Of a DNA stretch of 64,000 nucleotides, positions 32,202 to 48,736 are shown in pieces. The stretch is taken from positions 3,100,001 to 3,164,000 of the forward strand of contig NZ_LT605205.1 of the NCBI RefSeq assembly GCF_900095135.1, read 5' to 3'. The position numbers were made by a program, and so were the translations under genes. This DNA comes from Proteiniphilum saccharofermentans (GTDB taxonomy: Bacteria; Bacteroidota; Bacteroidia; Bacteroidales; Dysgonomonadaceae). Below the pieces are notes generated by a model. That model searched no databases. It was given only the letters and a program-made list of their open reading frames with translations, and was not told where the DNA came from. Within the stretch, counting starts at the first letter, position 1, and every line of letters begins with the position of its first letter.

Positions 32202-32867
32202 CTATACCAACTCTTCAAGTTTTCTCCTGTCCAGCACTTTCAATTCTCTCTTATAAAGGGAAATCATTCCTTCCCTGATCATTTCTCCCAGGGTACGGGC
32301 CAGTGAAGGGCGTTGTACGCCAAAGTACTCAGCCAACTGGGTTTGGGTACGCCTTAATATAAAAGAATTGTACTGGGGAGTTGTATTTTCCAATATATAA
32401 AGGGATAATTTTCCTTTCAGGCTTTTGATAGACATCATCTGCACCTTTTTAGAAAGAAATACGGTCATATTGGAGTTGACCTTCATAAAATTGGCCATCA
32501 ACGTTTCATTCTGCATCATCTCCTTCATCCACATCGATTTGGGGATCAGATAAAAAGTGCTTTTCTCGGCAGTGATCACATCTACCGGATAACGGTTCTC
32601 AGTGGCAACCAGAAAAGCAGGAGCAAGCGGCCTGACCGGTTCAATGAACTCAATCTCTAAGACATTTCCCTCTTTGGTCACCATTTCGGTACGCACCAGG
32701 CCTCCCATCAGCAGATAAAGGAACTGGACCTGGTCACCCTGCCGAACCACATAATTGCCTTTATCTACTTCCCTCACTTCGGATACCGAACGCTCCAATA
32801 TCCCATCTATCTCCTCTTTGGACAAATGAAAGAAAAGGGGACAGGAAAATATATTATAATCAGCCAT
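32202..32867 (-). CDS. Crp/Fnr-family regulator, probably HcpR-like
   Basis: From ATG at 32867 the protein has 221 residues; a longer frame begins 54 bp upstream but lacks family similarity. An N-terminal cyclic-nucleotide-binding-like sensor domain spans about residues 10-120 (GNYVVRQGDQVQFLYLLMGGLVR, EFIEPVRPLAPAFL). A dimerisation helix follows, then a C-terminal HTH with RTQTQLAEYFGVQRPSLARTL near residue 180. No N-terminal Fnr-type cysteine cluster is present, so it is not a classical oxygen sensor. It is divergent from hcp, whose promoter has a Crp-type palindrome. In Porphyromonas, HcpR activates hcp under nitrosative stress, and that role is inferred here. Confidence 0.85.
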   Translation of the reverse strand: MADYNIFSCPLFFHLSKEEIDGILERSVSEVREVDKGNYVVRQGDQVQFLYLLMGGLVRTEMVTKEGNVLEIEFIEPVRPLAPAFLVATENRYPVDVITAEKSTFYLIPKSMWMKEMMQNETLMANFMKVNSNMTVFLSKKVQMMSIKSLKGKLSLYILENTTPQYNSFILRRTQTQLAEYFGVQRPSLARTLGEMIREGMISLYKRELKVLDRRKLEELV

Positions 32868-32942
32868 AACTATTTCATCATTTTGATACAAAATTAGATG
32901 ATTTTCTTTTGTAAACCGCATAGGAGGATAAAATCCGGCAGG

Positions 32943-32960
32943 GTGTAACCACGGTTACAC
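32943..32960 (+). promoter_or_regulatory. Crp/Fnr-type palindromic operator upstream of hcp
   Basis: GTGTAACCACGGTTACAC consists of two perfect 8-bp arms around a 2-bp centre. Its centre is 29.5 bp upstream of the first base of the TACCTTTG box at 32981, equivalent to about -40, the normal position for class II activation. The same site and spacing recur at 46981-46996. It lies between the Crp/Fnr gene and hcp. Confidence 0.8.
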
Positions 32961-32980
32961 TTTTTGTCATGATGGGCCGA

Positions 32981-32988
32981 TACCTTTG
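32981..32988 (+). promoter_or_regulatory. hcp: -7 box of hcp
   Basis: TACCTTTG matches TAnnTTTG and gives a predicted start near 32992, about 34 nt before the hcp ATG. Its position relative to the palindrome supports activator-dependent transcription. Confidence 0.65.
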
Positions 32989-33025
32989 CAGTAAACAATT
33001 ACACAAATCAATCTTACGAAATAAT

Positions 33026-34684
33026 ATGGAAAAAATGTTTTGCTATCAGTGTCAGGAGACGAGTAAGAACGAAGGTTGCACCATACAGGGTGTTTGCGGG
33101 AAAACAGCCGATGTGGCCAACCTGCAGGACCTGTTGATGTTCCTTTGTAAAGGCATCTCCCACTACACTGTTCGCTTAAGGAAGTTGGGGATTGAGATTC
33201 CCCAGATCAACAAGTTCATTACCGATAGTCTCTTCATGACCATCACCAATGCCAATTTCGACAAAAGCCGGTTTATCACACGTATCTTAATGGCTTATGA
33301 AATGCGGAATGCCGCTGAAGAGCGGTTACTCTCCGCAGGGGGGAGTAGGGCCGGAATTACTTTTGACGGAGCCTTCTGGAGAGGAGACACTGAAGAAGAG
33401 ATGGCAGAGAAAGCAGTGGAGACAACCATTCTCACTACCGAAAATGAAGATATCCGTTCACTCCGTGAATTGACTATATACGGATTAAAAGGGATGGCTG
33501 CCTATGCCGAACATGCATTTAACCTGGGTTATGAAGAGAATGGAATTTACGGTTTCATGCAGCGGGCACTGGTAGATGTGACCAACGATTCACTGAGCGC
33601 AGAGGAATTGACAGGGTTGGTACTGGAAACCGGGAAGTACGGTGTACAGGTAATGGCGTTATTGGACAAGGCCAACACTTCGAGCTACGGTCATCCGGAA
33701 ATCACAAAAGTCAGTTTAGGCGTCCGTAACAACCCCGGCATTTTGATTAGCGGGCACGACATGAAAGATATGGAAGAGCTATTGAAGCAAACCGGGGGAA
33801 CCGGCGTAGATGTCTATACTCATAGCGAAATGTTGCCGGCCAACTATTACCCGGCATTCAAGAAATACAGCCATTTTGTAGGTAATTACGGTAGTTCATG
33901 GTGGCATCAGATTGAAGATTTTGAAAATTTCAATGGCCCGATCCTTTTCACTACCAACTGTATCGTACCTCCCAGAAAAAACTCCACTTACGGAGATAGG
34001 GTGTATACTACAGGGGCTTCCGGATTCGAAGGATTCAAACATATTGAAGACCGTAAGGACGGGCAGCCCAAAGATTTTTCCGCGCTGGTCGAACATGCGA
34101 AAAGGTGTGCTCCCCCCACAGAAATGGAGAGCGGAGAGATTATCGGCGGATTTGCCCATAACCAGGTCATTGCATTGGCTGACAAAGTGGTGGATGCCGT
34201 AAAGACAGGTGCTATCCGCAAGTTCTTCGTGATGGGAGGTTGCGACGGGCGTTTAAAAGGACGCAACTATTATACCGAATTTGCAGAGAAACTACCCAAA
34301 GATACGGTAATCCTTACCGCCGGATGCGCGAAATACCGTTATAACAAACTGCCATTGGGTGATATCAATAGCATACCACGTGTATTGGATGCCGGACAAT
34401 GTAACGACAGCTACTCGTTGGTAAAGATTGCATTGGCGTTGAAAGAAGCTTTCGGGTTCGATGACCTGAACGATCTTCCCATCGCCTACAATATCGCATG
34501 GTATGAACAGAAAGCAGTGATCGTACTGCTGGCGCTTCTTTCACTCGGAGTAAAGAATATTCATTTAGGCCCCACCTTGCCTGCATTTCTCTCGCCAAAT
34601 GTGGTCAACGTATTGGTCAACAATTTCGGAATAGCAGGCATCACCACTGTGGATGAAGATATGAAAGCACTGTTAAATGCTTGA
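33026..34684 (+). CDS. hcp: hydroxylamine reductase / hybrid cluster protein
   Basis: Hcp is a cytosolic Fe-S/Fe-S-O protein linked to nitrosative stress. It reduces hydroxylamine in vitro and has NO reductase and S-nitrosylating activity in E. coli. From ATG at 33026 the protein has 552 residues; an earlier in-frame ATG adds a non-conserved leader. The N-terminal cubane cysteines are C-x2-C-x8-C-x5-C, starting at residue 6 (FCYQCQETS). Hybrid-cluster cysteines follow in [22 protein letters not shown] and DAGQCND. No hcr reductase gene is adjacent. A Crp-type palindrome and a -7 box precede it, and a terminator follows at 34707-34737. Confidence 0.97.
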
Positions 34685-34706
34685 TAATAAGACAAAGTTG
34701 ACTGTA

Positions 34707-34737
34707 AAAAAACCGGCTCCTAACAAAGCCGGTTTTT
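34707..34737 (+). terminator. terminator of hcp
   Basis: AAAAACCGGCT at 34707-34717 pairs with AGCCGGTTTTT at 34727-34737 across a 9-base loop, about 23 bp past the hcp stop codon. A near-identical stem occurs after mdh at 51998-52029. Confidence 0.85.
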
Positions 34738-34840
34738 CATTGCAGAATATATTCTCAAACCTGTGAATTCAATCATCATTTAGTAAGCCTGTTTCTTAAA
34801 AGGAAGATCATAAGTACAGTATTATCAAAAAAAAGTTTAG

Positions 34841-35863
34841 TCATTTTAGGGATATTTTTGTTGTTTGACCTGTAGAATCAGGGATCGAAATCATAATATC
34901 TGATTCAGTAAGTTGGAATAAGCGCCAGTTATCAATATTGTCTCTAAAAGCACCGGTTATTATTTGTTTGAAGCTGAAATCTTCTGAGAAATTAAAATCA
35001 AACAAGTCGTTTCTATGTATGTGTCCAGCTACAATTAATTGAACGGAAGCATTATTCGTTTCTTTTAATACATCAAGAAAATCTTGAGTATTAGTTTTAT
35101 TTACATAATCGTCATAGCTTAAAGAAGGATTCCCTTTTTTTTCATCTTGATTATCAGAAGTTGGCAATGGTATGTGCATAAAAATAATTTCTTTATCATC
35201 AGACGATTCATCTAATTGTGCCTGTAACCAGTCCAATTGAGGGCGATCAATAATGAAAGCAGCTTGTTCCTTGTGTGTCCTAACTGAAAGATAAGCATTA
35301 TCTAGAAAGATCAAGCGGTATACTGTACTTCCTACGTTATATATTCTACTGTAATAAGTACCTTGGTGAAAAACAGGTAAATTCTTTACCCATGTTAATT
35401 TTGCAATATTTGCATGATTCTGATGATACCTATTTTTGGGATAGCTGGCTATGTCATGATTTCCTAATACTAAGTAAACGACAGAATTTGTCTCATAATT
35501 CATAATTTTGTGAAACAATTCTATTTGATTCCCCATTAATCCTCCTTCGGTTGATTCCGCCTCATAAAAATCTATCATATCCCCTGTTACAACTACAAAA
35601 TCGGTTTTTTTTGCCATCGGATGGCTATTCAAAAACTTCACAAATGGCTGCGCATTTGGGAAAGATTTCCCAAATCGTCTTTGGACAAAGCTTGAGTCAT
35701 AACTTATAGGATTTAAAATAAGATGTACATCAGTAAGATGTACAAATTTTAATGTATCATTTCTTTCTTTAGAAAATGCAAATACTGGAATAATTAGAAA
35801 AACCAACAATAAAATAAGAAAGTGGCAATATCTTTTAGCTATGCATTTGTGTAAATCCAACAT
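34841..35863 (-). CDS. exported metallophosphoesterase
   Basis: From the ATG at 35863 the protein has 340 residues and a signal or anchor segment (CHFLILLLVFLIIPVFAFS). An ATG 39 bp upstream is also possible. It has all calcineurin-like phosphoesterase metal-binding motifs in order: HLTDVHL (D-x-H), VVTGDMIDF (G-D-x2-D), LVLGNHDI (G-N-H-D), FMHIPLP and VAGHIHRND (G-H-x-H). It is therefore probably an active dinuclear-metal hydrolase acting outside the cytoplasm on a phosphoester or a phosphorylated sugar. The longer of the two starts is separated from the Gfo/Idh/MocA gene by 9 bp. It ends the third locus, and its low GC matches the SusCD genes there. Confidence 0.9.
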   Translation of the reverse strand: MLDLHKCIAKRYCHFLILLLVFLIIPVFAFSKERNDTLKFVHLTDVHLILNPISYDSSFVQRRFGKSFPNAQPFVKFLNSHPMAKKTDFVVVTGDMIDFYEAESTEGGLMGNQIELFHKIMNYETNSVVYLVLGNHDIASYPKNRYHQNHANIAKLTWVKNLPVFHQGTYYSRIYNVGSTVYRLIFLDNAYLSVRTHKEQAAFIIDRPQLDWLQAQLDESSDDKEIIFMHIPLPTSDNQDEKKGNPSLSYDDYVNKTNTQDFLDVLKETNNASVQLIVAGHIHRNDLFDFNFSEDFSFKQIITGAFRDNIDNWRLFQLTESDIMISIPDSTGQTTKISLK

Positions 35864-35911
35864 AAGTTTGTTTTTTAGAATTACATAATTAAAGAGTTTC
35901 ATACTAATATA

Positions 35912-37282
35912 TCATAATTTATTTTCTTGAGGGATCAATGATGAAAGGCTTTTTATCATGACGGGTTCTTTTGAGGCTATGCTTTTTCTTGCGGCAATTC
36001 CCACCAGGCATGACAATGCCCCGTCCCTCACTTCGGCTGCTTGCCTGAGAGGATCTTTCGTATTGGGGATGAATATCTGATCCTTGAGAAGTTTGTCGCC
36101 ACCCCCGTGCCCCGATCCCTGGGGTATCTGGATATATTCCCTCTTCCCAAAGTTCCTGAAAACCACTATCTCGTCATAATTTGCATCCGATGTGGGTTTT
36201 GACTCCTGGATCCAGGCATCCATCCGTCCTCCAGTTCCGTTGAACGCGATCCGGTACCCCTCGTAGGGTGAATAGGTGGTCAGGGAGTAGGACACCTGTA
36301 CGCCGTTCATATATTTTATGGTTGCAGCCATCTTGTCATAAATGTTGATATCGTTCCTGAACACGCAACCGTCCCGATAGTATCCATCATATTTTTCGTT
36401 ATCGACATATAACTGTTTGAGCCTTTCATTCCTTGTTATATCCCAATAGAAATTGCATTCTTTTGTATGGGGACAATTCCTGCAGTTGTCCGCCCTGAAC
36501 GGGCCGTTTTTCCCGTAGAACTCCAGGCTGCCCAGTGCGTATACGCTTTCAGGGTCACTGCCGATCCACCAGTTAAGCAGGTCAAAATGATGGCTGGCCT
36601 TGTGTACCCAGAGTGAACCTCCCTTTTCCTCCAGCCTGTGCCACCTCCTGAAATAGTCCGCCCCGTGGGAAGTGTCGAGGTACCAGTGGAAGTCGACTGA
36701 TGTCAGCTTTCCTATTTCACCCGAACGGAGGATCTCCCATATTTTCGCACGGTGTGGCGAGTAACGGTAGTTGAAGGTGACCCTACATTTCCTGCCCGTT
36801 CTCTTTTCAGCATCTATTATTCTTTGGATTTTTTTCTCATCAATGGCCATCGGTTTTTCACAAATAATGTCCGCCCCCATTTCCATCCCCTTTTCGATGA
36901 AATAGTCATGTGTGTCATCGTCGGTAGTGACTATAAGTACCTGAGGTTTGGCCTGACGCATCATCTGCTCGAAATCGGCGAATGTGGGGCAGTCAACCCC
37001 GATCATCTGCCTGCCGGTCTCGAGCCTCCCGGGATTCTTGTCACAGAGCCCCACGAATTCGATATAGTCTCCATAGTCTCTGACAACACTGTTTCCCCAC
37101 ATGCCTATCCCTCTAACACCGGTTCCCACCAAGGCTATTCTTGTTTTTCTGGTATTCTCTCTCATATCAATTGCGCTGTTCGCAAAGATTTTTGATTTGG
37201 GATCTATAATGGTTGTTCCTGCTATAGCTCCTGATACCGTTAAAAAGTTCCGTCTCGACATGGTTGGATTATTTTCTTTCAT
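35912..37282 (-). CDS. exported Gfo/Idh/MocA-family oxidoreductase with cysteine-rich insert
   Basis: The 456-residue protein has a twin-arginine signal (SRRNFLTVSGAIAGTTI). The Rossmann start RIALVGTGVRGIGMWGN is near residue 48, the motif ICEKPMAIDEKKI near residue 140, and the dehydrogenase domain has KASHHFDLLNWW. A segment with C-x2-C-x5-C (NCRNCPHTKEC, about residue 275) followed by GCVF is a known insert in one branch of the family and may bind metal. The gene is clearly richer in GC than both neighbours, which suggests separate acquisition. It lies in the third glycan locus and probably oxidises or epimerises a released sugar. The substrate is unknown. Confidence 0.9.
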   Translation of the reverse strand: MKENNPTMSRRNFLTVSGAIAGTTIIDPKSKIFANSAIDMRENTRKTRIALVGTGVRGIGMWGNSVVRDYGDYIEFVGLCDKNPGRLETGRQMIGVDCPTFADFEQMMRQAKPQVLIVTTDDDTHDYFIEKGMEMGADIICEKPMAIDEKKIQRIIDAEKRTGRKCRVTFNYRYSPHRAKIWEILRSGEIGKLTSVDFHWYLDTSHGADYFRRWHRLEEKGGSLWVHKASHHFDLLNWWIGSDPESVYALGSLEFYGKNGPFRADNCRNCPHTKECNFYWDITRNERLKQLYVDNEKYDGYYRDGCVFRNDINIYDKMAATIKYMNGVQVSYSLTTYSPYEGYRIAFNGTGGRMDAWIQESKPTSDANYDEIVVFRNFGKREYIQIPQGSGHGGGDKLLKDQIFIPNTKDPLRQAAEVRDGALSCLVGIAARKSIASKEPVMIKSLSSLIPQENKL

Positions 37283-37494
37283 GTTCGTATGTATTTATTT
37301 TAGTTATTAGTTCTCTATCTATCACTATTAAATTTCCCAGACTTTCTTATATCTGTTCATCTGTAAGGTTTCCTTGTATTATCACTTTATGAATAAAAAT
37401 TAGTTTTATCATGTTTAAAATCAATTTTCACAGTCATATTGATTGTAGAAATTATAATACATTTAATAAGTATTTTATTTCAGTGACTCATTTA

Positions 37495-39282
37495 TTACTC
37501 TCTTGTAAATGCAATTCCATTTAAATTTGTTGAATATCCTCTAGTCTTATTTGGCCAAGTACCATTCTCGATCCAATCACAATACTGAAGAGCCATATTT
37601 GCATCTTCTTTCCAATTCCATTGGCCAATTGGAACTTTTCTATTATAATTTTTAATTATTCCCGAAATTTCTTTGCAGTCATCCAAAGCATTACCTATTA
37701 TTTCTATCAGTTTAGGATTTTGATAAGATAGTCCCTTGGCATATATTCTATACCCAAAATATAAAGTGCTAACAGCTTTATGTAAACGGGCAGTTATTAA
37801 CGTTCGATTAAAGTAATCAAATAGTTCCGTATATTGATCTTCTGATAGATATGGTTTTGCTTTAGTGATTTCAAATAAAGAAGCTTCTGCTAAAGATACA
37901 CCATACTCTTTCTCGGTCATTACATATGACAGGAACTCCTCATTCATTTTTTCTCCGCGGGTCAACCATTCATTATCTATTACCCATGGAATTTCATACA
38001 GTTGAGTTCCTCCAGCTTTAGCCCAATCTGGAGCTAATATATTTATTATATCTCTCCAATAATGAAACCCACGATCAACTTCATGTTCTACATAAACTAC
38101 AGGTGGATCGAGCCATTTTCCGGAAACATGACGTGCCCAATGTGATGGATAAGGGTCGTAATTTAGGCTTGAGTGATTTGCGGTGCTTGTCCCAAGTGTG
38201 TACAAGATTGATGTAATAATATCAAAAGAATTTTTGAATGCATTTTTAATAAAAGGAAGAGCTTCTTCGTTATACGTTAACGTTATGAATTCATCATAAA
38301 TATCGTCGGAAGTTAAACTTCGATCTTCTAAATATCTCTTTAATGCATAAAGGTTGATTTCAGAAGGGCGCCCTACTATTCTAGTATCCCCATATCTATC
38401 AGTACGAGCTGTATAGCCTATAATATGATCACGGTTTAAAAAATCACTCCAACGATCTAAAATATGCTCGGGCCAAGTGTTTGCAATTATACCTTGACCG
38501 TTAAATTCTGCCCCCGTATCAAATTCTATAATTGTTGGTCTATTAATAGTACCGGCGAGAAAATCGTTTGGATGGGTAAGAAAGAAATCATGAGGTGTTT
38601 CTTTCATCATTAATCTGATTTCAGGGTATTCAAACAATTCAATTGCGCCGATAATATTTTCATACTCCTTATAGGTATAAGAGAATGTTCGTGCATATAG
38701 GTTTAACCCTCGTTCTTCAATTACTACTGAAGCAATAGCATTTACCACCGCAGCTAATTTTTCTTGATTACTTTTTAATTTCTCAGAATACTGATCTTCA
38801 ACTCTTGCTCCAGTTTCTATAAATGTAAGAACTAGACCTTGTATATTGGGAGCTAAATTGAGCATTTCACGGTAGTCATCTTTAAACCATTCCCAAAAAG
38901 CGTCATCGTCTAAATTAATTGTACCTTTAGGACCTGTTTTAAACTGATCAGGATAATAATCCAATTCATATAGGGATCTATCCCATAAAACAACTTCCTG
39001 AATCCCTTTTGAATGAGCATATTTTGTTAGTATATCAGCCTTTTCTAACCTTTTAGGATCTCGAACATGTTTTAAATCATGAATAAGATGATGTGATATC
39101 TGTAAATGATTAATACTATAGTTGAGAGATTTTTCAATTACCAAAGAGTCCTCATGAACATCATCGGATAGAATAATCCATCCCTTGACAGTTTCATTAA
39201 CACTAAGAGGTCTTGGACTGTTCTCTTTTGGAGAACAAGAAAATAAAATAAAAAAAAGGAGGGAAATTATATATTTGAACAT
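37495..39282 (-). CDS. unclassified lipoprotein, possibly a glycoside-hydrolase-like TIM barrel
   Basis: From ATG at 39282 the protein has 595 residues and a lipoprotein signal ending LFSC (Cys near residue 16). An upstream in-frame ATG adds 15 residues. I do not recognise a firm family. The middle has repeating beta/alpha character (HLQISHHLIHDL, EVVLWDRSLYELDYY, IQGLVLTFIETGAR, LNLYARTFSYTYKEY, PTIIEFDTGAEFNGQG). This is suggestive of a barrel distantly like GH67 alpha-glucuronidases, whose EF-x-EY-GQ word resembles EFDTGAEFNGQ. Later segments are helical. It lies 246 bp downstream of SusD in a sigma/FecR/SusCD locus, the usual place of a surface glycan-processing enzyme. Enzyme activity is inferred only. 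Confidence 0.45.
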   Translation of the reverse strand: MFKYIISLLFFILFSCSPKENSPRPLSVNETVKGWIILSDDVHEDSLVIEKSLNYSINHLQISHHLIHDLKHVRDPKRLEKADILTKYAHSKGIQEVVLWDRSLYELDYYPDQFKTGPKGTINLDDDAFWEWFKDDYREMLNLAPNIQGLVLTFIETGARVEDQYSEKLKSNQEKLAAVVNAIASVVIEERGLNLYARTFSYTYKEYENIIGAIELFEYPEIRLMMKETPHDFFLTHPNDFLAGTINRPTIIEFDTGAEFNGQGIIANTWPEHILDRWSDFLNRDHIIGYTARTDRYGDTRIVGRPSEINLYALKRYLEDRSLTSDDIYDEFITLTYNEEALPFIKNAFKNSFDIITSILYTLGTSTANHSSLNYDPYPSHWARHVSGKWLDPPVVYVEHEVDRGFHYWRDIINILAPDWAKAGGTQLYEIPWVIDNEWLTRGEKMNEEFLSYVMTEKEYGVSLAEASLFEITKAKPYLSEDQYTELFDYFNRTLITARLHKAVSTLYFGYRIYAKGLSYQNPKLIEIIGNALDDCKEISGIIKNYNRKVPIGQWNWKEDANMALQYCDWIENGTWPNKTRGYSTNLNGIAFTRE

Positions 39283-39528
39283 AATAAGTAAATTGTAAAC
39301 TATTGTAATTAGAGATTTTATAATCAATTAAAAAAGAATAATATGAAAGAATCTTTTTGTTATATAATTCTCTCGTTGTCTTCTATTTGATCTAAATTTA
39401 GGTGTTTTTTAGATAAATCTTTGTTCTATTTAGGCTTACCACTAGAATGATTCAAGTTATGAAAGATTTAAAAACCAGCGCCCGAAGACACTGGTTCCGG
39501 AAAATATCTTCTTTCTCAAATTCCGATA

Positions 39529-41277
39529 TTAATAACCTGGATTCTGTTCAAGCACAGCTTCAACATTTTTATTGATTTCACTAAATGGGATTGCCCACAA
39601 ATTTTGATGAGACTGAATAGTTGATCCAACAATTGGATTTAGCTTTTTAGCTCTATCAACGACTTTATTTAATCTAGCAAGTGTAATGATTCTAAGAGTT
39701 TCAAAATAAAGTTCTCTGAGTCTTTCATCTAAAATATAGTCAATATCAACTTCATTAGGTGTAATGCTTGGAGCATTCGACCTATTTCGTACAACGTTAA
39801 TGTCCTTGGCTGCATTCTCCAGATCGTTATTACCTAAATAAGCTTCAGCTCTCAATAAATATGTCTCCGCCAACCGAATCATATAATGTTTTCTCCATGT
39901 GTGTTGAGCAGAGCCAAGAAGAGAGCCTGGTATTGTCTGGTCAGGATCCCAATATGGATCAGGATGTTTCCCCGGTGTTATTACCTTTCCAATAATTGGA
40001 TAAAAATGCCGTGTCGTATCATCATTATGGGATATCTTTAAAGGTAAGTTATCTGCAATGACCCATTTACCATCATATTCGTTTCCTGGATTATTTACTT
40101 TTACATCCCGGATAATATTCCCTTTTGAGTTTCTAATATCTACATCATAACCACTTTTTTCCCACAAAGTAGTAAGAAAATATGGACTTGGCTTATTAAA
40201 ACCTTGTCCTCGCCCATTATAATAAGTATTAGGTTTTGCAAGAACTGGGGATGTTCCCCCATCACTTTGAAATATATGTGCTTTGGTAAGATCAGGACCT
40301 ACAAAGCGTTCTAACTCATAATTCTGATCACCTCCACCCGCTACATTATACTCATATTGAAGAACCCAAATAGATTCAGTATTACCAGCTGATCTATCCT
40401 GATTACCCTGTCTGAATAAATCCCAATATACATCTCCCTCATAGAAGTTAGGATCATTAAACAGATACTCTGTACTAGATCCAAATCGTTCTGTCATAAG
40501 TTTAGTGCCAGGATGATTAATAACTTTAGATGCCTCGTTAATAGCATCTTGCCACCTGCCTAATGATATATATACTTCAGTTAATACGTGGCTCGCAGCT
40601 AATTTATTAATTCGTGATTCGTCAACTTTATCAATATCATTAAGATTGGCAACTGCAAATTCCAGATCACTAGCGCATTGTTCATACGTCTCTTGTCGGC
40701 TTGCTCTAACAAAATCCCTCCTTGGTGATTTAATCTCTTCAAGTACGATAGGTACGCCACCATATAGGTTTGCTAATATATTGTATGCATAAGCTCTAAA
40801 AAATCGAGCTTCTGCCTGAAAATAAACTTTTTCTTCAGGTGTTAATTGGCTAATATCACTCTCCGAACGTTCTAATATAACATTAGCATCAAAAATCAAT
40901 CGGTAACTTAACTCCCATATATCAAATGTCAATCCATGTGGGCCCCACAAAACACTATAATTGTGACTCCCATCAGTATCATATCTACTCTCAACCAAAT
41001 CTGTTCCATACCACCCGATTCTTGGAAATCTTGATTGTGAACTCTGCCCCCATAATTGATCTCTCAAAGAGGAATGCAAACTATAAATGGCTGCTTCAAA
41101 ATCTCCAGCTGTAACAAAAGAATTCTCTGGTGAATAAAAATCGATAGGAATTTCTTTCAAAAATTCATTTTCATTACAGGATAAAGCTAAAAATATTACT
41201 AGAATAAAGCTGAAAAAACTTAACAGTATTGAGTTTTTCTTGTTAAGTGACTTATTTTTATTTTTTTTCATTTCCAT
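39529..41277 (-). CDS. SusD/RagB-family surface lipoprotein (third pair)
   Basis: The 582-residue protein (ATG at 41277; the frame extends three more bases to a TTG) has a basic N terminus, a hydrophobic stretch and lipobox LALSC, followed by NENEFLKEIPIDFYSPENSF, the typical SusD beginning. The C terminus contains DERLRELYFETLR and closes with LWAIPFSEINKNVEAVLEQN then PGY. It starts 6 bp after the SusC stop codon, a tight operon. It should bind the ligand imported by that SusC. The downstream lipoprotein, oxidoreductase and phosphoesterase hint at an unusual, perhaps acidic or phosphorylated, glycan, but this is inference. Confidence 0.93.
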   Translation of the reverse strand: MEMKKNKNKSLNKKNSILLSFFSFILVIFLALSCNENEFLKEIPIDFYSPENSFVTAGDFEAAIYSLHSSLRDQLWGQSSQSRFPRIGWYGTDLVESRYDTDGSHNYSVLWGPHGLTFDIWELSYRLIFDANVILERSESDISQLTPEEKVYFQAEARFFRAYAYNILANLYGGVPIVLEEIKSPRRDFVRASRQETYEQCASDLEFAVANLNDIDKVDESRINKLAASHVLTEVYISLGRWQDAINEASKVINHPGTKLMTERFGSSTEYLFNDPNFYEGDVYWDLFRQGNQDRSAGNTESIWVLQYEYNVAGGGDQNYELERFVGPDLTKAHIFQSDGGTSPVLAKPNTYYNGRGQGFNKPSPYFLTTLWEKSGYDVDIRNSKGNIIRDVKVNNPGNEYDGKWVIADNLPLKISHNDDTTRHFYPIIGKVITPGKHPDPYWDPDQTIPGSLLGSAQHTWRKHYMIRLAETYLLRAEAYLGNNDLENAAKDINVVRNRSNAPSITPNEVDIDYILDERLRELYFETLRIITLARLNKVVDRAKKLNPIVGSTIQSHQNLWAIPFSEINKNVEAVLEQNPGY

Positions 41278-41283
41278 CAATTT

Positions 41284-44200
41284 TTAAAATTCCAGGTTTA
41301 AACCAAATGTATAACTTTTTAATACAGGACGGCCATTCCTACTTATTCCAGAACCGGTTTCAGGATCCCATCCCGGCCATTTTGTCCATGTATATAAGTT
41401 TTTCCCACTGATAAAAAATCTCAAGTTTTCAAGATTAAACTTATTAAGATATTTTTTTTCCACCTTATAGCTCAATGATACATCTTGTAACCTGACAAAA
41501 TTTCTTTGTACAAAAGATGTTGCTAATAAATTACTTGAAATAGCCGTCCCAACTCTAGGATATCTTGCATTTGGGTTTTCCGGTAGCCAATAATCTAACC
41601 CAGTAGGAAAATTCAATTGATAATGTTGACCATATACATCCTCGCTATTTGAGAAACCAGTCCCCAACGTTTGATAATGTATGTTATCCATTGCATAATA
41701 ATAATCTTTTCCACCTTGAACTGAATTTATAAAAACACTAAGAGACCAATTTTTGTATGTAAATTGATTTGAAATACTAAATCTATAAGAGGGTTCACCA
41801 TATCCCAATATTATTTTATCATTTTCGGGATCTATTTTACCGTCATTATTTTGATCGACTATTTCCTGGGAACCGATATCCGCTGTAGCAGGTATGTCAT
41901 CCCCAATTTGGTATAGTTTACCCGTTACCTGATAATGGTAAATAGTACTGAGCGGATGACCAATAAAAAGACCTTCTGAAATAAGATCATCTTCTTTACC
42001 ATCACCATCATTGTCAAATCCCAACAACTCTTTTAACTCATCCCTATTTCGTGAAAAGGTAAAATCGCTAGTCCAACTAAAATCAGTCTCTTTAATGTTG
42101 ATTGTTGATAAAGTTATTTCAATGCCATGATTATGTATCTTTCCAAGATTATCAGGAAATTTTGAGAATCTACCGATACTTGGAATATCTACACTATAAA
42201 GGAGATCTCTTGTATTATTATTGTAATACTCGATTTGTCCGGAAATTCTTGAATCAAAAAAACCGAAATCAACACCTAAGTTTAATCCTGTTGTTGTCTC
42301 CCATTTTAAATTTGGACTTGCAAGATCACTGATTGATTTTGCATAAACAGGTGTGCCTGAAGAGTTAACATATCTGAAACCACCATCAACTTTTGCTAAT
42401 GTTTGGTACCGACCAACCGTACGATTCCCAATAGAGCCGTATGACCCTCTGATCTTCAAATAGTTCATTACACCAAGGAAGTTTTCAAAGAAAGTTTCTT
42501 CCGAGGCAACCCAGCCTAATGCTAATGAGGGAAAAACTCCAAATTTATTATTCTCACTGAATCCAGAAAATCCATCACGTCTAACAGTTGCTGTCATCAT
42601 ATATTTATCGTATAGACTATAAAAAAGTCGAGCCATACTGTAAAGACTTTGTTCTTCCCAAGCCCCTGAAATAGTTTCCTGTAAATCTGAACTTCCTGAT
42701 TGGAGGCTATTATAACCTAAAATATCATTGATAAAAACTGATGATCTGGCGTCAGTATAATCATTTTTCCTTTTTTCAAATCCATACAGTAGCGTTACAT
42801 CAAGATTATGTATTCTATTAAATCTACGTTTAAACGAGAGTATATTGTCTGATGACATATCATGTAAATAGCTGTATGATTTCTGTCCTCTTCCCTGAAA
42901 ATTATTACTATAGGGCTGAAAGTAATAATTCCGGGTTGTTCTTAGATTATTAGAAAAATTAAACTTATAAGATAAACCCTTTAGAAAAGGAAAATCGATT
43001 GTAGCATATAAATTACCAAAAATGTTATACCTTTTATCCAGGTTATCCGCTTCTGCTTCAACCAGAGGCGAAACACTTCTACCCTCAATGAGAGGATTAA
43101 GGCTGCCATCTTCAGCATATGCAGCCTCAAATGGCATAAGATATCTATCAGATGTTGAAGGTACCATGCCTGAATTGTCACTGATTGACCCAAAGGTCTG
43201 GACTCCAATAGTAAGCCAATCTGTTAATTTATTGTCAACATTAATACGTGCGTTGTATCTTTTATATTTTTCATTAATCATATACCCCTGTTGATCAGTA
43301 TATCCAAGCGAAATAAAATAATTTAGGTATTCTGTTCTATTTGATAAACTGAGATTGTGACTATTTACATAAATATGGTCGTTTGTTAAAAGATTATACC
43401 AGTCAGTTTCTCTTCCATTCAAATAATTTTCAAGTTGTTCATTTGTCTTAAACGTAGCAGAAACATTGTAATCGGGCCTAGGCTCAAGATATCCGGATTC
43501 GGGAGTTCTACTTTGTTTCCATTCGATTTGTGTATTTTTTTTAATAAAATCTGCTCCATTACCGGGAATAAACTCAACTGTAGGTGATTGCAAGGAATAA
43601 CTAGCTGAATAATTTATTAGAGGTTTCATATTCTTTCCTTCACCCGATTTTGAAGTAATAATTATTACTCCATTAGCTGCCTGTGAACCATAAACTGCAG
43701 CAGCACTATTATCTTTAAGTATATCTATTTGATCTATATCATCAGGATTCAAATCAATTAAATTACCACGGAAAATCACCCCATCTAATATTATTAATGG
43801 CTGTTGTTCGCCAGAAATCGATGTCCTTCCACGAATTGAGAAACTTGGGTTGGAACCTGCTTGCGTAATTTGACTTACATTCAAGCCTGCTACCGAACCA
43901 TGCAATGACTGTAAAATAGAAATATTAGGTTGATCTCGGAATTTTTCAAAGTCTGCTCTAACTACAGAGCCAGTCAAATCACTCTTCCTCATTGTACCAT
44001 AACCAATCACAACCAGTTCATCCAATGCTTGTGTATCTTCCTGTAAAATAATTTTTAAATAGGTTTGACCTGCTATATTGATATCCTGTGCCAAATAACC
44101 GATATACGAAATATGGAGTATGGCGTCGTCTTCCACATTCAGGGAAAACTTTCCATTCACATCCGTCACCGTCCCATTTGTAGTCCCTTTTTCCACAATA

Positions 44201-44664
44201 TTGGCACCGATAATGGATTCTCCGTCTTTATCGATAATGGTACCGGTAATTGTCTTTTTTTGTTGTTGTACAATATCTTCTTCATGCACAATATTATCCA
44301 AAGTCTTTTTTATAATGTAAATTGAACGGTCAGAAATAAAATAAGTATTATCGGTAGCACTGAGAACGTCTTTTAGGATTTGCTCAATTGTCCCGTTATC
44401 GGTATTTACCGTAACTCTCTTGTTCACATCGAGAATATCGTCCTGATAAAAGAAAATAAATTCACTGTTCCTTTCTATTTCGGACAAGACCTGTTTGACC
44501 GTCTTATTTTTCAGATTAAGGGATATCTTTGTCGACTGGGAATAACTGTTATTGGAAAAGCAGACGCTAATACCTAGTGTCAAGAATAAAAAAAATACTC
44601 TCATAATTCGACATGTTCGTCTAATATTAGCTTTTTTTAAGCCAAGGTGTTTGTTTTTTGTCAT
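41284..44664 (-). CDS. SusC/RagA-family TonB-dependent transporter with STN domain (third pair)
   Basis: From ATG at 44664 (MTKNKHLGLKKANIRR) the protein has 1126 residues; the frame extends further upstream but without family similarity. The signal segment is at about 21-43. An STN domain follows at about 45-120 (ISLNLKNKTVKQVLSEIER), then the carboxypeptidase-like domain (GTIIDKDGESIIGANIV), the SusC motif DELVVIGYGTMRKSDL, a plug with SIRGRTSISGEQQPLIILDG, and a barrel ending SYTFGLNLEF. The STN domain and the FecR and sigma genes upstream show transport-coupled signalling, as in the first locus. The base composition is AT-rich. Confidence 0.94.
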   Translation of the reverse strand: MTKNKHLGLKKANIRRTCRIMRVFFLFLTLGISVCFSNNSYSQSTKISLNLKNKTVKQVLSEIERNSEFIFFYQDDILDVNKRVTVNTDNGTIEQILKDVLSATDNTYFISDRSIYIIKKTLDNIVHEEDIVQQQKKTITGTIIDKDGESIIGANIVEKGTTNGTVTDVNGKFSLNVEDDAILHISYIGYLAQDINIAGQTYLKIILQEDTQALDELVVIGYGTMRKSDLTGSVVRADFEKFRDQPNISILQSLHGSVAGLNVSQITQAGSNPSFSIRGRTSISGEQQPLIILDGVIFRGNLIDLNPDDIDQIDILKDNSAAAVYGSQAANGVIIITSKSGEGKNMKPLINYSASYSLQSPTVEFIPGNGADFIKKNTQIEWKQSRTPESGYLEPRPDYNVSATFKTNEQLENYLNGRETDWYNLLTNDHIYVNSHNLSLSNRTEYLNYFISLGYTDQQGYMINEKYKRYNARINVDNKLTDWLTIGVQTFGSISDNSGMVPSTSDRYLMPFEAAYAEDGSLNPLIEGRSVSPLVEAEADNLDKRYNIFGNLYATIDFPFLKGLSYKFNFSNNLRTTRNYYFQPYSNNFQGRGQKSYSYLHDMSSDNILSFKRRFNRIHNLDVTLLYGFEKRKNDYTDARSSVFINDILGYNSLQSGSSDLQETISGAWEEQSLYSMARLFYSLYDKYMMTATVRRDGFSGFSENNKFGVFPSLALGWVASEETFFENFLGVMNYLKIRGSYGSIGNRTVGRYQTLAKVDGGFRYVNSSGTPVYAKSISDLASPNLKWETTTGLNLGVDFGFFDSRISGQIEYYNNNTRDLLYSVDIPSIGRFSKFPDNLGKIHNHGIEITLSTINIKETDFSWTSDFTFSRNRDELKELLGFDNDGDGKEDDLISEGLFIGHPLSTIYHYQVTGKLYQIGDDIPATADIGSQEIVDQNNDGKIDPENDKIILGYGEPSYRFSISNQFTYKNWSLSVFINSVQGGKDYYYAMDNIHYQTLGTGFSNSEDVYGQHYQLNFPTGLDYWLPENPNARYPRVGTAISSNLLATSFVQRNFVRLQDVSLSYKVEKKYLNKFNLENLRFFISGKNLYTWTKWPGWDPETGSGISRNGRPVLKSYTFGLNLEF

Positions 44665-44805
44665 ACATTTGTAATGATTTAAATTTGAAACTTTAACTGG
44701 TTTTACATTTAAGTTCTGGCCGGATGATACTGAACCTATCATCCGGTTGCTTTTTTAAGAGTCAGATTTTCGTCATAGGCATCTTTTAATTTAGTTGTTT
44801 AAAAT

Positions 44806-45996
44806 TCAGGATATTGTATTTATCGTATAACTTCCGTCATTATTTTTCCTATATGTGATGGGTAATGCACGGGATAATTCATCCAGCAATTTGTTCATGT
44901 CGTCTTTCAGGTCGAGTTTCCCGGAGCATTTCAGTTCTGTTATGGCGGCATCGCATTCGATCCGTATGCCGTAATACCGCTCAAGGCGGGTGACGATATT
45001 TGCCAATTTCTCACTTTCGAACTGATATAATCCTTGTGTCCATAAAATATAGATGCTGGCATCCACGTTTTCAACGGTATGGGAGCCTTTGATATCGGAA
45101 TACATTTGATCCGGTTTCAGGATGATATTCTTGTTTCGCGAGTTGGAAGAAATACTTACCGACCCGGATAACAGGACAACACTATTTGTTTTATCGGCTT
45201 CATATGCCGACACGTTAAACTTCGTACCCAATACCTCGATATCCATCTGACTCGTTTTTATCACAAACGGGCGTTTCTTATCTTCACAAACCTCTACATA
45301 GATTTCCCCATCCACATAGATCTCCCTTTTTCCTTTGTTGAATTCGGCAGGATATACAAGCCTGCTGCCCGCATTCACCCATGCTTTTGTCCCGTCGGAG
45401 AAAGTTATGACGGAACGTTTCCCATAAGGTGTGATCAACTGGTTATAAGGAGCCGACTCTTCCTTTAGAATAAGATTGTCATCAGCTTTTATCCCATCTT
45501 CTTCGTATTGGATGGAAGATTCCTTATTGTTTAAAACGACAGTGTTGTTTTCCGACAGGATCAATTTAGTGTCGGACGAATAGAAATCGCTATTGTCGGG
45601 TAATGTCCGGGCAAAGGTTGAAATATCCTGCACATTATTGCCTTTGTCGAAGAGAAGCGGCAGGGATATGATGATAGCAACACTCGCGGCTATGGCGGAT
45701 ATACTCAAAACAATACGCTTTGAGGTTCTTCTTTTCTTTTTATAACAGATTTGGTTTTGCAGTGAAATTATGCACTCTGATATTTCCGGACGGGACATGC
45801 TGAAATCATTGAACCTGATATTGTCCTTATACAGGATAACAGCCTCTTCTATCGGCAATGTCAGAAACGGATACTTTTCAACAACATCGTTCCAAAACAG
45901 CATGTCTTCTTCACCGTTGAAGAGCTGCCACCTGATAAAATCCTTGTCTTTAAGGAAATCTGTTGCGGTATAGTTTTTATATTTATCTGCCTGCAT
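44806..45996 (-). CDS. FecR-family anti-sigma factor
   Basis: The 396-residue protein has a cytoplasmic N-terminal part (residues 1-95), and one membrane span near 96-114 (IVLSISAIAASVAIIISLP). A long periplasmic linker follows. The FecR domain has TFSDGTKAWVNAGSRLVYP and GEIYVEVCEDKKRPFVI, and a DUF4974-like C terminus has ELKCSGKLDLKDDMNKLL. It is longer than the other FecR protein, mainly in the linker. It lies between the sigma gene and the SusC gene and should gate the sigma factor in response to ligand binding by the STN-bearing SusC. Confidence 0.95.
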   Translation of the reverse strand: MQADKYKNYTATDFLKDKDFIRWQLFNGEEDMLFWNDVVEKYPFLTLPIEEAVILYKDNIRFNDFSMSRPEISECIISLQNQICYKKKRRTSKRIVLSISAIAASVAIIISLPLLFDKGNNVQDISTFARTLPDNSDFYSSDTKLILSENNTVVLNNKESSIQYEEDGIKADDNLILKEESAPYNQLITPYGKRSVITFSDGTKAWVNAGSRLVYPAEFNKGKREIYVDGEIYVEVCEDKKRPFVIKTSQMDIEVLGTKFNVSAYEADKTNSVVLLSGSVSISSNSRNKNIILKPDQMYSDIKGSHTVENVDASIYILWTQGLYQFESEKLANIVTRLERYYGIRIECDAAITELKCSGKLDLKDDMNKLLDELSRALPITYRKNNDGSYTINTIS

Positions 45997-46044
45997 TTAT
46001 CCCGTCTGTTTTCATACGATTATTTTATTTTTTTCTTGTCGGTG

Positions 46045-46100
46045 TATGGAACTCGCTTTTAATCATGCTCTTGTGTGAGAACAGTTATCATGCTCGTTTC
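46045..46100 (-). repeat. intercistronic repeat, copy B (56 bp)
   Basis: This copy lies between the sigma stop codon (46156) and the FecR start (45996) and matches 13971-14025 at about 47 of 56 positions. Read on the minus strand, GAGCATGATAA and GAGCATGATTAA form a clearer internal direct repeat than in copy A. The ten-codon ATG-to-TAA frame here reads MITVLTQEHD. The function is unknown. Confidence 0.6.
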
Positions 46101-46155
46101 TATATATACAAACGGAATAATTTTTTATACCCATTTTCTCAAAAAAAAATGAAAA

Positions 46156-46746
46156 TTAAGAAAAGATCAGCATAAATAAACAGATCAATAGTAGTTGTTC
46201 GTCGTCCCTCAACCGTTTCAGGGAACGGGAAATCAGCTTCCGTGCGGCATGTTGTGTTATATCCATTATTTCGGCAATTTCCTCATATTCCAGTTCCTGC
46301 ATAAAACGGAGATATATAGCTTCCTTTTGGCGGGAAGTAAGTTTTGAAAGGAGGTCATCTATCTGCTGTTTAATAATAACGCGGTCTTCTTCATCGATAA
46401 TCCTATCTAATACGGTTGTCGTGATGGAAAAGCTGAGAACATCTTCAGAAATATCGGTAGTGGTCGAAACAGCTTTAGATTTATAGATGTTATAAAGCCT
46501 GTTTTTAAGAGATTTCAGTAAAAAATACTTCAAGTGATCGATAGAAGAAAAATCTTTTTCTTCGAAATATATTTTCAGGAATATATCCTGAATGGTATCC
46601 TTTACAACTTCTTTTTCCCCTCCCAGGCTTATTCCGTAAGCGTACAAATCATTTATATAAATTTGATAAAAAAAGGAAAATGCATGATCATCCCCTTTCT
46701 TGAATCTTGTGAATAAGCTGGTATGATCGGGAGCAGAAACGTTCAT
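46156..46746 (-). CDS. ECF RNA polymerase sigma-70 factor (third locus)
   Basis: From ATG at 46746 (MNVSAPDHTSLFTRFKKGD) the protein has 196 residues; the open frame continues upstream but that part is not protein-like. Region 2 has AFSFFYQIYINDLYAYG and VVKDTIQDIFLKIYFEE. Region 4 has LTSRQKEAIYLRFMQELEYEE and the HTH IAEIMDITQHAARKLISRSL. It ends in a hydrophobic tail LLLICLFMLIFS, like the first sigma factor. It should drive the FecR-SusC-SusD operon downstream. A box TACATTTG is on the coding strand at 46778-46785. Confidence 0.93.
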   Translation of the reverse strand: MNVSAPDHTSLFTRFKKGDDHAFSFFYQIYINDLYAYGISLGGEKEVVKDTIQDIFLKIYFEEKDFSSIDHLKYFLLKSLKNRLYNIYKSKAVSTTTDISEDVLSFSITTTVLDRIIDEEDRVIIKQQIDDLLSKLTSRQKEAIYLRFMQELEYEEIAEIMDITQHAARKLISRSLKRLRDDEQLLLICLFMLIFS

Positions 46747-46777
46747 AATGCGGTGTGATTTGCATGCATATCGTGTG

Positions 46778-46785
46778 CAAATGTA
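46778..46785 (-). promoter_or_regulatory. candidate -7 box of the ECF sigma gene
   Basis: TACATTTG on the minus strand matches TAnnTTTG and lies 31 bp upstream of the sigma start codon at 46746. It also marks the ATG at 46746 as the likely start, since the upstream extension would be untranscribed. Confidence 0.5.
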
Positions 46786-46980
46786 CACAAAATAGTGGGT
46801 TACCAAAACACTTTTTGTGCTTTCATTTCCAAAATATAAACTAAATCCTTTACAGGACAATAGAGAAAAGTGTGTTTTTGTTACGATATTTTGAGAGAAA
46901 AGCACACTATTAACTGGCAATAATTAGGAGAAAGTTGATAGGCTCCTAAATTATATTAAAATAACCTAAACAGCAATTTA

Positions 46981-46996
46981 TGTAACTTCGGTTACA
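46981..46996 (+). promoter_or_regulatory. Crp/Fnr-type palindromic operator upstream of the cupin operon
   Basis: TGTAACTTCGGTTACA has 6-bp inverted arms and equals the core of the hcp site (TGTAACCACGGTTACA) at 14 of 16 positions. Its centre is 29.5 bp upstream of the first base of TATTTTTG at 47018, exactly as at hcp. It probably binds the same Crp/Fnr regulator. Confidence 0.75.
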
Positions 46997-47017
46997 ATTT
47001 ATACTGGTTCTAAATAG

Positions 47018-47025
47018 TATTTTTG
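47018..47025 (+). promoter_or_regulatory. -7 box of the cupin/DUF438/DUF2249 operon
   Basis: TATTTTTG matches TAnnTTTG, giving a predicted start near 47029 and a leader of about 105 nt before the cupin gene. The spacing to the palindrome equals that at hcp. Confidence 0.6.
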
Positions 47026-47134: not shown

Positions 47135-47464
47135 ATGGCAACATACGAAAAATCAAAAGTCATCGCCCTCGAAGAATCGATAGATTACGCTTCCGGCGGG
47201 GTAGTCAGCAAACAAGTCACCAAAAACAAAGTAGGGAATATCACTCTCTTCTCTTTCGATAAAGACCAGGGGCTGACCGAACATACCGCAAACTACGACG
47301 CTTTTGTACAGATACTGGACGGAGAAGCTGAAATACGGATTGGCGGTGTACCGCATCTTCTGAAAAAAGGAGATTGCATCATCATGCCGGCTAATATACC
47401 CCATGCTCTGACAGCCGTTGAGCGCTTCAAGATGTTGCTGACTATGATCCGCGGAGAAGAATAA
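47135..47464 (+). CDS. small cupin-domain protein
   Basis: The 109-residue protein is a single conserved-barrel cupin. The first metal-binding motif corresponds to LTEHTANYDAFVQILDGEAEI (about residues 48-68, with one His and the usual trailing Glu/Gly) and the second to GDCIIMPANIPHAL (about 82-95, His near 93). The reduced set of histidines leaves metal binding uncertain. It is the first gene of a three-gene operon, 36 bp before the DUF438 gene, under the Crp-type palindrome. Its role could be sensing or binding a small ligand in nitrosative or redox stress. No reaction is assigned. Confidence 0.85.
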   Translation: MATYEKSKVIALEESIDYASGGVVSKQVTKNKVGNITLFSFDKDQGLTEHTANYDAFVQILDGEAEIRIGGVPHLLKKGDCIIMPANIPHALTAVERFKMLLTMIRGEE

Positions 47465-47500: not shown

Positions 47501-48736
47501 ATGAGCGAATTCATCAATAACTCAACGCAGCGCAAAGAGATGCTGCGTCATCTCCTTCTCAGGCTGCACGAAGGGGACAATCCCGAAATATTGCGCCAAC
47601 GGCTGATTGAAGTGCTGAAAAGCATTCCCTACCACGAAGTAGTGGAGGTAGAGCAGGAACTGATCAACAGCAATGCACTTACCGAACAGGAGATACTTGA
47701 ATTCTGCGACCTGCATACGGCGGTACTCGACGGGAGCATCGACCAGCAAGGGGCAAAACAAATACCTGCAGGCCATCCGGTAGACACTTTCAAGAAAGAG
47801 AATATCGCTATCCGCCAACAGCTCGAGGCATACGAAGAGATAAAGAAAAAGATTGCGGATATCACCGATGCACAAGTGACGGGATATGTACTTCAACTGC
47901 GTACCATCTTCAACAACTTCTCCGATATCGACAAGCATTACAAACGGAAGGAGTATCAACTTTTCCCGTTTCTGGAAAAACACCTGATCACCGGGCCGCC
48001 CAAAGTGATGTGGGGTAAACATGATGAGACACGAGAATTACTGAAAAATTCGCATGAAGCGCTTGCATCACCTATTTCCAGTACAGAAGAGTTAAGATCG
48101 ATTATACAGTTGGTGCTTGACCACACGGTAGAGATGATTGCCGGAATGATCATGAAAGAGGAAGAGATTCTCTTGCCGATGTCTATGGATACGCTTACTG
48201 AAGATGAATGGTACAAAATCTATCAGGAGACGCCGGAATTTGGTTATTGCCTGATCGATCCGGAGGATGAATGGGCGCCGGGCGGTGTGAAGGTGGAAAA
48301 ACAGGAATATGTGACAGCCGATGCCATCCGTCTCTCTTCAGGCGCATTTAATCTGGACGAGTTAGAGGCTCTGTTCCTGCACTTACCTATCGACATCACC
48401 TTTGTAGATAAGAACGACAAGGTACGTTTCTTCTCGCACAGTCCCAACCGCGTTTTCGAACGCAACCGGTCCATCATTGGCCGCGATGTACGGATGTGCC
48501 ACCCGCCCGGCAGTGTACATATAGTGGAGCAGATACTCACCGATTTCAGAAGCGGGAAAGAGAACAAGGCTGTTTTCTGGATGTCGAATTTTCAGGGACG
48601 TTTTATTTACATCGAATATTCTGCCGTCCGCGGGAAAGAAGGTGAATACCTCGGTGTAGTGGAGGTGACACAGGATATCACCACCATGCGAAAGCTGGAA
48701 GGCGACCAACGTTTGTTATCGTATGAGCAGAGATAG
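47501..48736 (+). CDS. DUF438 / hemerythrin-like / PAS-domain protein
   Basis: The 411-residue cytosolic protein has three parts. An N-terminal DUF438 domain spans about 8-75 (KEMLRHLLLRLHEGDNPE). A hemerythrin HHE-type four-helix domain spans about 85-225, with candidate iron ligands in GHPVDTFKKE, DKHYKRKEYQLFPFLEKH, GKHDETRELL and LDHTVEMI...EEEILLPM. A C-terminal PAS domain spans about 290-400 (LPIDITFVDKNDKVRFFS, CHPPGSVHIVEQI, YLGVVEVTQDIT). Hemerythrin folds carry a di-iron site that can bind O2 or NO or help repair Fe-S centres (as in YtfE/ScdA). No output domain is visible. Its last codons overlap the next gene by 14 bp. Confidence 0.9.
   Translation: MSEFINNSTQRKEMLRHLLLRLHEGDNPEILRQRLIEVLKSIPYHEVVEVEQELINSNALTEQEILEFCDLHTAVLDGSIDQQGAKQIPAGHPVDTFKKENIAIRQQLEAYEEIKKKIADITDAQVTGYVLQLRTIFNNFSDIDKHYKRKEYQLFPFLEKHLITGPPKVMWGKHDETRELLKNSHEALASPISSTEELRSIIQLVLDHTVEMIAGMIMKEEEILLPMSMDTLTEDEWYKIYQETPEFGYCLIDPEDEWAPGGVKVEKQEYVTADAIRLSSGAFNLDELEALFLHLPIDITFVDKNDKVRFFSHSPNRVFERNRSIIGRDVRMCHPPGSVHIVEQILTDFRSGKENKAVFWMSNFQGRFIYIEYSAVRGKEGEYLGVVEVTQDITTMRKLEGDQRLLSYEQR

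Follow-up and report, generated by a model that had tools for sequence, protein, structure and literature searches.

Introduction

Several systems have been described in which a Crp/Fnr-type regulator, HcpR, acts on hcp, the gene of the hybrid cluster protein, and here we compare them with two operons, hcp itself and a cupin/DUF438/DUF1858-DUF2249 operon, that lie in a 64,000-nucleotide stretch of the Proteiniphilum saccharofermentans genome (the window, G000:C1:3100001-3164000; the genome is one contig of 4,414,963 bp, 4.41 Mb). In the HcpR2 regulon of Bacteroides, Clostridium and Thermotogales, a Crp/Fnr gene stands beside hcp and the consensus GTAACnnnnGTTAC precedes hcp (Rodionov 2005, PMC1274295). 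Both features are found in our locus, and the motif itself is already known, being this published HcpR2 consensus. The regulons of most Bacteroides species are reported to hold only hcp, whereas in our locus the site also stands before a second operon. In Bacteroides thetaiotaomicron, deletion of hcpR abolishes hcp transcription, and Pro187, Ser188 and Arg191 of the recognition helix are predicted by AlphaFold3 to contact the site (PMC13370916, preprint). Our locus resembles this HcpR-SnoA-hcp system in the divergent hcpR-hcp arrangement, in Pro/Ser/Arg at the same helix spacing and in the reading of HcpR as hcp activator; the text of the preprint is without the terms cupin and DUF438.

The HcpR of Porphyromonas gingivalis is a nitric oxide (NO)-responsive hcp activator whose haem ligand Met68 aligns with Met80 of the window protein (numbered from the longer frame), but its helix has Gln for Pro and its motif is reported to be different (PMC12750200). 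An initial annotation of the window had named Porphyromonas as the precedent; on helix and motif the Bacteroides HcpR2 is the better one. In Desulfovibrio desulfuricans, NO induces hcp along with a cupin gene that neighbours hcp and hcpR2, so co-regulation of cupin and hcp has a precedent, and Ddes_1165, a hemerythrin and PAS protein, is NO-induced and proposed as the YtfE equivalent (PMC5701242). That system differs from ours in having separate loci and in the modelling of HcpR2 as a repressor. None of the papers listed in our literature search names a DUF438 operon as an HcpR target, and its HcpR and DUF438 papers do not overlap; most subscription papers and RegPrecise lay outside its scope, so this is not proof of absence. 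We report the sites, their spacing, conservation, synteny and co-occurrence with hcpR, from which we infer binding, NO response and activation: one HcpR very probably switches on both operons from identical promoters. The second target, a set of uncharacterised proteins reminiscent of a kit for iron-centre repair, seems to be a new component of the NO response, and a conserved one.

Two promoters of identical geometry

The promoters of hcp and of the cupin operon each carry a TAnnTTTG box, the -7 consensus of Bacteroidetes promoters, and in both the centre of a palindrome lies 29.5 bp before the first base of the box. The two palindromes are identical at 14 of 16 core positions, with both differences in the 4-base centre. 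The palindrome and box coordinates (Table 1), the 14-of-16 match and the shared spacing had been given by the initial annotation and were exact on recheck. The geometry predicts a class II position, with the palindrome centre at about -41 from the predicted start; Crp class II activation takes place from sites centred near -41.5.

The whole genome was scanned for the palindrome pattern and for a composite element, defined as palindrome, 21 bp and TAnnTTTG. Exact TGTAACnnnnGTTACA occurs at only 2 places in the 4,414,963 bp, both in the window (about 0.4 expected from the window base composition), and the exact composite at the same two (about 0.0003 expected). Many copies at unrelated places, which would have spoken against a common regulator, were not found. 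No composite in the genome has 1 or 2 mismatches. Eight have 3 mismatches, against 4 in all for the reversed-pattern control at up to 3; among the eight, 1907126 adjoins a second HcpR-like gene, and the minus-strand hit at 3146952 corresponds to palindrome 2 seen from its opposite strand. Eight palindromes have one mismatch, 7 of them within open reading frames (ORFs) of at least 100 codons and 1 intergenic, and none has an intact box at 29.5 bp; the one at 4033308, inside an ORF, has 3 mismatches in total as a composite. Further targets in this genome were rejected on these grounds.

The cNMP-binding (cyclic nucleotide monophosphate-binding) and Crp-type helix-turn-helix domains found by domain search in the product of the gene adjoining hcp agree with the earlier reading of a divergent Crp/Fnr gene. 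The same searches upheld the predicted genes of the second operon, the last of which carries DUF1858 in addition to the DUF2249 named at first. The start of hcpR is more likely at 32867 than at 32921, because in 18 genus orthologues, besides the three closest, the alignment sets in only at residues 8-23 when the longer frame is used. For hcp we took 33026, because the ORF listed from 32969 would begin upstream of the box. The features are collected in Table 1.

Table 1. Features of the two loci (window coordinates)
Feature	Position	Strand	Remarks
Palindrome 1, predicted HcpR site of hcp promoter	32943..32960	.	GTGTAACCACGGTTACAC
-7 box of hcp, Bacteroidetes-type	32981..32988	+	TACCTTTG
Palindrome 2, predicted HcpR site of cupin operon	46981..46996	.	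TGTAACTTCGGTTACA
-7 box of cupin operon	47018..47025	+	TATTTTTG
Candidate -7 box of hcpR itself (by inference only)	32889..32896	-	TAATTTTG, 55.5 bp from palindrome centre
hcpR, Crp/Fnr regulator	32202..32867	-	Start is residue 19 of longer ORF beginning 32921; recognition helix VQRPSLARTL
hcp, hybrid cluster protein	33026..34684	+	NCBIfam hydroxylamine reductase
Terminator-like GC-rich inverted repeat then T run, 3' of hcp	34710..34737	+	By eye
Small cupin protein	47135..47464	+	Pfam Cupin_2
DUF438 + hemerythrin (HHE) + PAS_10 protein	47501..48736	+	Domain search
DUF1858 + DUF2249 protein	48723..49250	+	Domain search; overlaps preceding gene

Conservation of the sites in relatives

The best 80 of at least 489 DUF438 relatives, all from named records, were analysed, with the site searched in the 1.5 kb upstream of DUF438. 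Among named records the closest DUF438 protein, 99% identical, belongs to Proteiniphilum acetatigenes, with the proviso that this comparison may omit the own genome or one very near to it. Many relatives have hcpR-hcp-[cupin]-DUF438-[DUF2249] as a single cluster, and there the palindrome precedes one operon or the other with its spacing unchanged. A site of up to 2 mismatches with TAnnTTTG at 29.5 bp was found in 22/80 loci, and at 30.5 bp in 4/80. Co-oriented hcp and DUF438, with hcp upstream, were found at 19 loci, and at 18 of them hcpR is divergent next to hcp. Of the 19 hcp genes, 18 are preceded by a palindrome with at most one mismatch and TAnnTTTG at precisely 29.5 bp, the exception being L121, where the hcpR-like gene is further away. 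In 13 of the 18 loci the only site found precedes hcp, and so DUF438 may be co-transcribed with hcp there. Sites stand at both the hcp and the DUF438-operon promoters in five loci (L056, L057, L059, L066, L072), and before cupin in others, for example L051, L067 and L068, that lack hcp in the analysed stretch. When the promoters were aligned (23 of hcp, 31 of cupin or DUF438), the arms and the box were nearly invariant and the centre was variable. As a further observation, a GTTAA-like element lies 10-14 bp 5' of the palindrome in hcp promoters, with A at -12 in 22/23; the window hcp promoter has only its A-rich part.

In the genus, 37 genomes were tallied by hand, incomplete ones included, with orthologue cut-offs of at least 74% identity for hcpR, 84% for hcp and 76% for DUF438. 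Wherever an hcpR orthologue is present (19 genomes), there is also a site of up to 1 mismatch, against 1 of the 18 genomes without hcpR; this one, G017 (1 mismatch), has the site beside an hcpR remnant of 33-35 residues. An hcp orthologue is found in 15 genomes, all with hcpR, and a DUF438 orthologue in 19, of which 17 have hcpR.

A composite shared across the order

The exact composite was then counted in 392 genomes of the same order (completeness at least 90; taken as Bacteroidales from named relatives), which were not preselected on these genes. It occurs at 45 places in 38 genomes, and its reversed control nowhere. Chance or repeated sequence as the source of the two window sites was rejected on this census and the genome scan. 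For the 43 sites outside the own genome, neighbours were scored as hcp (match starting within 3.4 kb downstream), ferredoxin (CDGLG[ASD]C[IL] no more than 600 bases past the box) and divergent hcpR-like gene (opposite-strand tblastn match of the window protein, E no higher than 1e-4, with its start at most 1.2 kb upstream); some stretches stop at a contig end, so that the counts are lower bounds. At least 26 sites have hcp downstream, at least 26 have a ferredoxin-like gene first, and at least 33 have either, while a divergent hcpR-like gene accompanies at least 22. Downstream genes include cupin at 9 or more sites, DUF438 at 4 or more and DUF2249 at 4 or more, with any of the three at 12 or more.

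Ten census sites have neither hcp nor a CDGLG-type ferredoxin downstream. Small ferredoxin genes follow the exact composite in L230, where DUF2249 lies downstream, and, by eye, in L231; nrfH follows it in L234 (plus strand) and in L248, which also has DUF438 and DUF2249 downstream; and on the minus strand of L234 it precedes a gene for a PepSY protein. The composite marks nitrogen-oxide genes across the order. Exact composites were also seen before hydG (L241), napA (L249) and an alginate-export-like gene (L250), as well as before two genes without an explained link (L253, L254).

HcpR, its paralogue and the choice of site

The recognition helix of window-type HcpR is strongly conserved, with RPSLAR (VQRPSLAR) in 25/27 distinct translated orthologue matches, RPSLSR in 1 and 1 not caught by the pattern; the Met aligned with the P. 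gingivalis haem ligand is present in 25/27, the other 2 not being caught. The window protein has Pro at the specificity position and not the P. gingivalis-type Gln. Five matches to HcpR are found in its own genome, itself included. One of them, the HcpR-like protein at G000:C1:1907382-1908026 (L136), is about 49% identical, reads VQRQSLAR and faces TGTCGCTTGGGTGACA at the same 29.5-bp spacing before a DUF6448 gene, from which it is divergent; its N-terminus is His-rich. The five proteins of this RQS kind that were examined, with Gln for Pro in the helix, face a TGTCGCnnnnGTGACA-type site, which in G001, G018, G031 and G005 is TGTCACnnnnGTGACA. There are 22 genus paralogues at 46-52% identity, of which the 5 examined were picked because their sites surfaced in searches; DUF6448 was identified by Pfam in the own-genome copy, and the G001 and G005 copies are alike by eye.

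The paralogue sites agree with the published link between helix position and motif, and with P. gingivalis, where Gln goes with another motif. HcpR and its paralogue, present in the same cell, differ at a single motif-tracking helix residue and face differing sites, a pairing that offers a direct test of DNA choice in the Crp family. We are evenly divided over a broader proposal, in which the Bacteroidales NO-response regulon would extend beyond hcp, with HcpR also driving a still uncharacterised module for iron-centre repair (cupin, DUF438-hemerythrin-PAS, DUF1858-DUF2249), and in which the Pro/Gln change would insulate two paralogue regulons, TGTAAC (hcp and repair) and TGTCRC (DUF6448).

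Regulatory model and alternative explanations

In the proposed mechanism, the Crp/Fnr protein would belong to the HcpR2 group described for Bacteroides and would sense NO, probably via haem liganded by Met80, a suggestion based on one aligned residue. The HcpR dimer would bind TGTAACnnnnGTTACA, whose centre near -41 takes the place of a -33 element, and would activate RNA polymerase at the TAnnTTTG promoter in the class II manner. The two targets would be hcp, whose product removes NO, and the operon of cupin, DUF438-hemerythrin-PAS and DUF1858-DUF2249, which would protect or repair iron centres. We consider it highly likely that an HcpR2-kind regulator senses NO and activates both operons from class II sites. 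One regulator acting on both from a class II position had been put forward in the initial annotation, and the conserved cluster, the exact spacing, the co-occurrence with hcpR and the lack of a site at the DUF438 gene in two genomes without the regulator (G023 and G033, below) support it, while direct binding and activation are predictions drawn from these patterns.

Several observations weigh against this reading. By the criteria used, 36/80 DUF438 loci have no site (L053, among them, is without upstream sequence), including loci labelled Prolixibacteraceae, Marinilabiliaceae and Rikenellaceae, and at 5/80 more (L086, L088, L089, L090, L128) the box that goes with the site is degenerate, so the DUF438 operon does not always belong to the regulon. 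Three Porphyromonas DUF438 promoters (L081, L082, L087) show no palindrome with at least 5/6 paired arm positions at 28.5-31.5 bp from the box. The aligned promoters were selected for having a site, and the association of hcpR and site in the genus (Fisher p 1e-9) ignores the relatedness of the genomes. Composites of up to 2 mismatches number 52 in 61 relatives against 18 for the reversed pattern, about threefold, so that the weak matches include chance ones. Finally, the model published for D. desulfuricans HcpR2 is one of repression (PMC5701242). The three Porphyromonas loci were also considered as a test of co-evolution, which gave nothing, since no full palindrome is present.

The repression model raises the question of whether HcpR might sit at both sites as a repressor released by NO. 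We think this unlikely, for a site near -41 covering the -33 region is typical of activators. HcpR of B. thetaiotaomicron, where its deletion abolishes hcp transcription, and that of P. gingivalis also act in the activating direction (PMC13370916, PMC12750200). It is slightly less likely still that the second promoter is served by a different Crp/Fnr protein, for example the paralogue at G000:C1:1907382 (49% identity). The genome does hold such candidates, and this paralogue too faces a palindrome 29.5 bp from a box, but it reads RQSLAR in place of RPSLAR and faces TGTCGCTTGGGTGACA, or TGTCACnnnnGTGACA in the four other genomes. In addition, G023 and G033 have the DUF438 gene without an hcpR orthologue, and no palindrome better than 3 mismatches is found in the 3.4-4.2 kb around the gene. 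The preprint on B. thetaiotaomicron describes SnoA, an RNA that is encoded opposite to hcp within the hcp promoter, to which it is complementary at the HcpR recognition sequence (PMC13370916), and a SnoA-like RNA across the palindrome could be the main regulator, with the repeats kept for the RNA. This seems very improbable to us, as the second promoter has the same palindrome without an adjoining hcpR, its similarity to P. acetatigenes starts only 34 bp upstream, and the four centre bases of the palindrome vary among the aligned promoters.

Predicted function of the second operon

If HcpR drives both operons, the Bacteroidales NO response gains DUF438, DUF1858, DUF2249 and, through the paralogue, DUF6448, all families of unknown function. 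Protection or repair of iron centres is the most likely role of the second operon, with the hemerythrin-PAS protein presumably working like YtfE/RIC. The hemerythrin part of the DUF438 protein matches YtfE by profile (E 2e-4) as well as Pfam Hemerythrin, and H146, E151 and H174 are invariant in 48/48 aligned sequences. Their spacing of 5 and 28 is that of H234, E239 and H262 in Ddes_1165, which are matched to YtfE ligands (PMC5701242); Ddes_1165 is likened here by domains and ligand spacing. C69, H72, H92, E100, C333 and H334 are also invariant in the same 48 sequences and may, speculatively, bind metal or haem.

YtfE/RIC differs in carrying ScdA_N, whereas the window protein has DUF438 and PAS domains. 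A Pfam search with 42 DUF1858-DUF2249 sequences gave no ScdA_N (DUF542) match even with the E cut-off raised to 1, and a split RIC, with DUF1858 as the ScdA_N-like domain, was rejected for lack of sequence support. The DUF1858-DUF2249 model has a predicted local distance difference test score (pLDDT) of 78.4 and a predicted template modelling score (pTM) of 0.46. The nearest folds of its DUF2249 part are TusA/SirA-like, a weak likeness (template modelling score by target about 0.7 for small proteins, best E 0.02, none reaching 0.001). For the DUF438 model (pLDDT 77.7, pTM 0.55) the best match is 3cax, an uncharacterised protein, followed by 2qkp and PAS domains. DUF2249 proteins are reported to increase under denitrification in Haloferax mediterranei, and one acts in the nitrate response of Thermus.

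Separation of the operons and neighbouring features

The 14-kb distance between the operons is secondary: relatives have the two side by side, where the window has an island between them. The second site of G002 and L056 starts 13 and 40 bp past the last matched hcp codon. The P. acetatigenes locus (L170) has a largely different island and a transposase-like gene in the same gap, with one shared stretch of 583 bp at 85%, and its 97% identity to the window resumes at 46947, before palindrome 2. Separation from hcp has thus not cost the second promoter its site.

In the window, 34841-46920 looks by eye like a polysaccharide-utilisation-type island, with SusC-, SusD-, FecR- and sigma-factor-like ORFs, and a 640-residue transposase-like ORF adjoins hcpR at 30137-32059. 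A terminator-like repeat similar to that of the window also follows hcp in L170, by eye. Decay of the cluster was seen in relatives as an hcp remnant, fragmentary DUF438 matches and an hcpR remnant (L160 1329-1487; L187 4104-4336; L188 3256-3354), and in the metagenome genomes L074 and L075 (6963-8643) the DUF438 match is split by about 1.7 kb.

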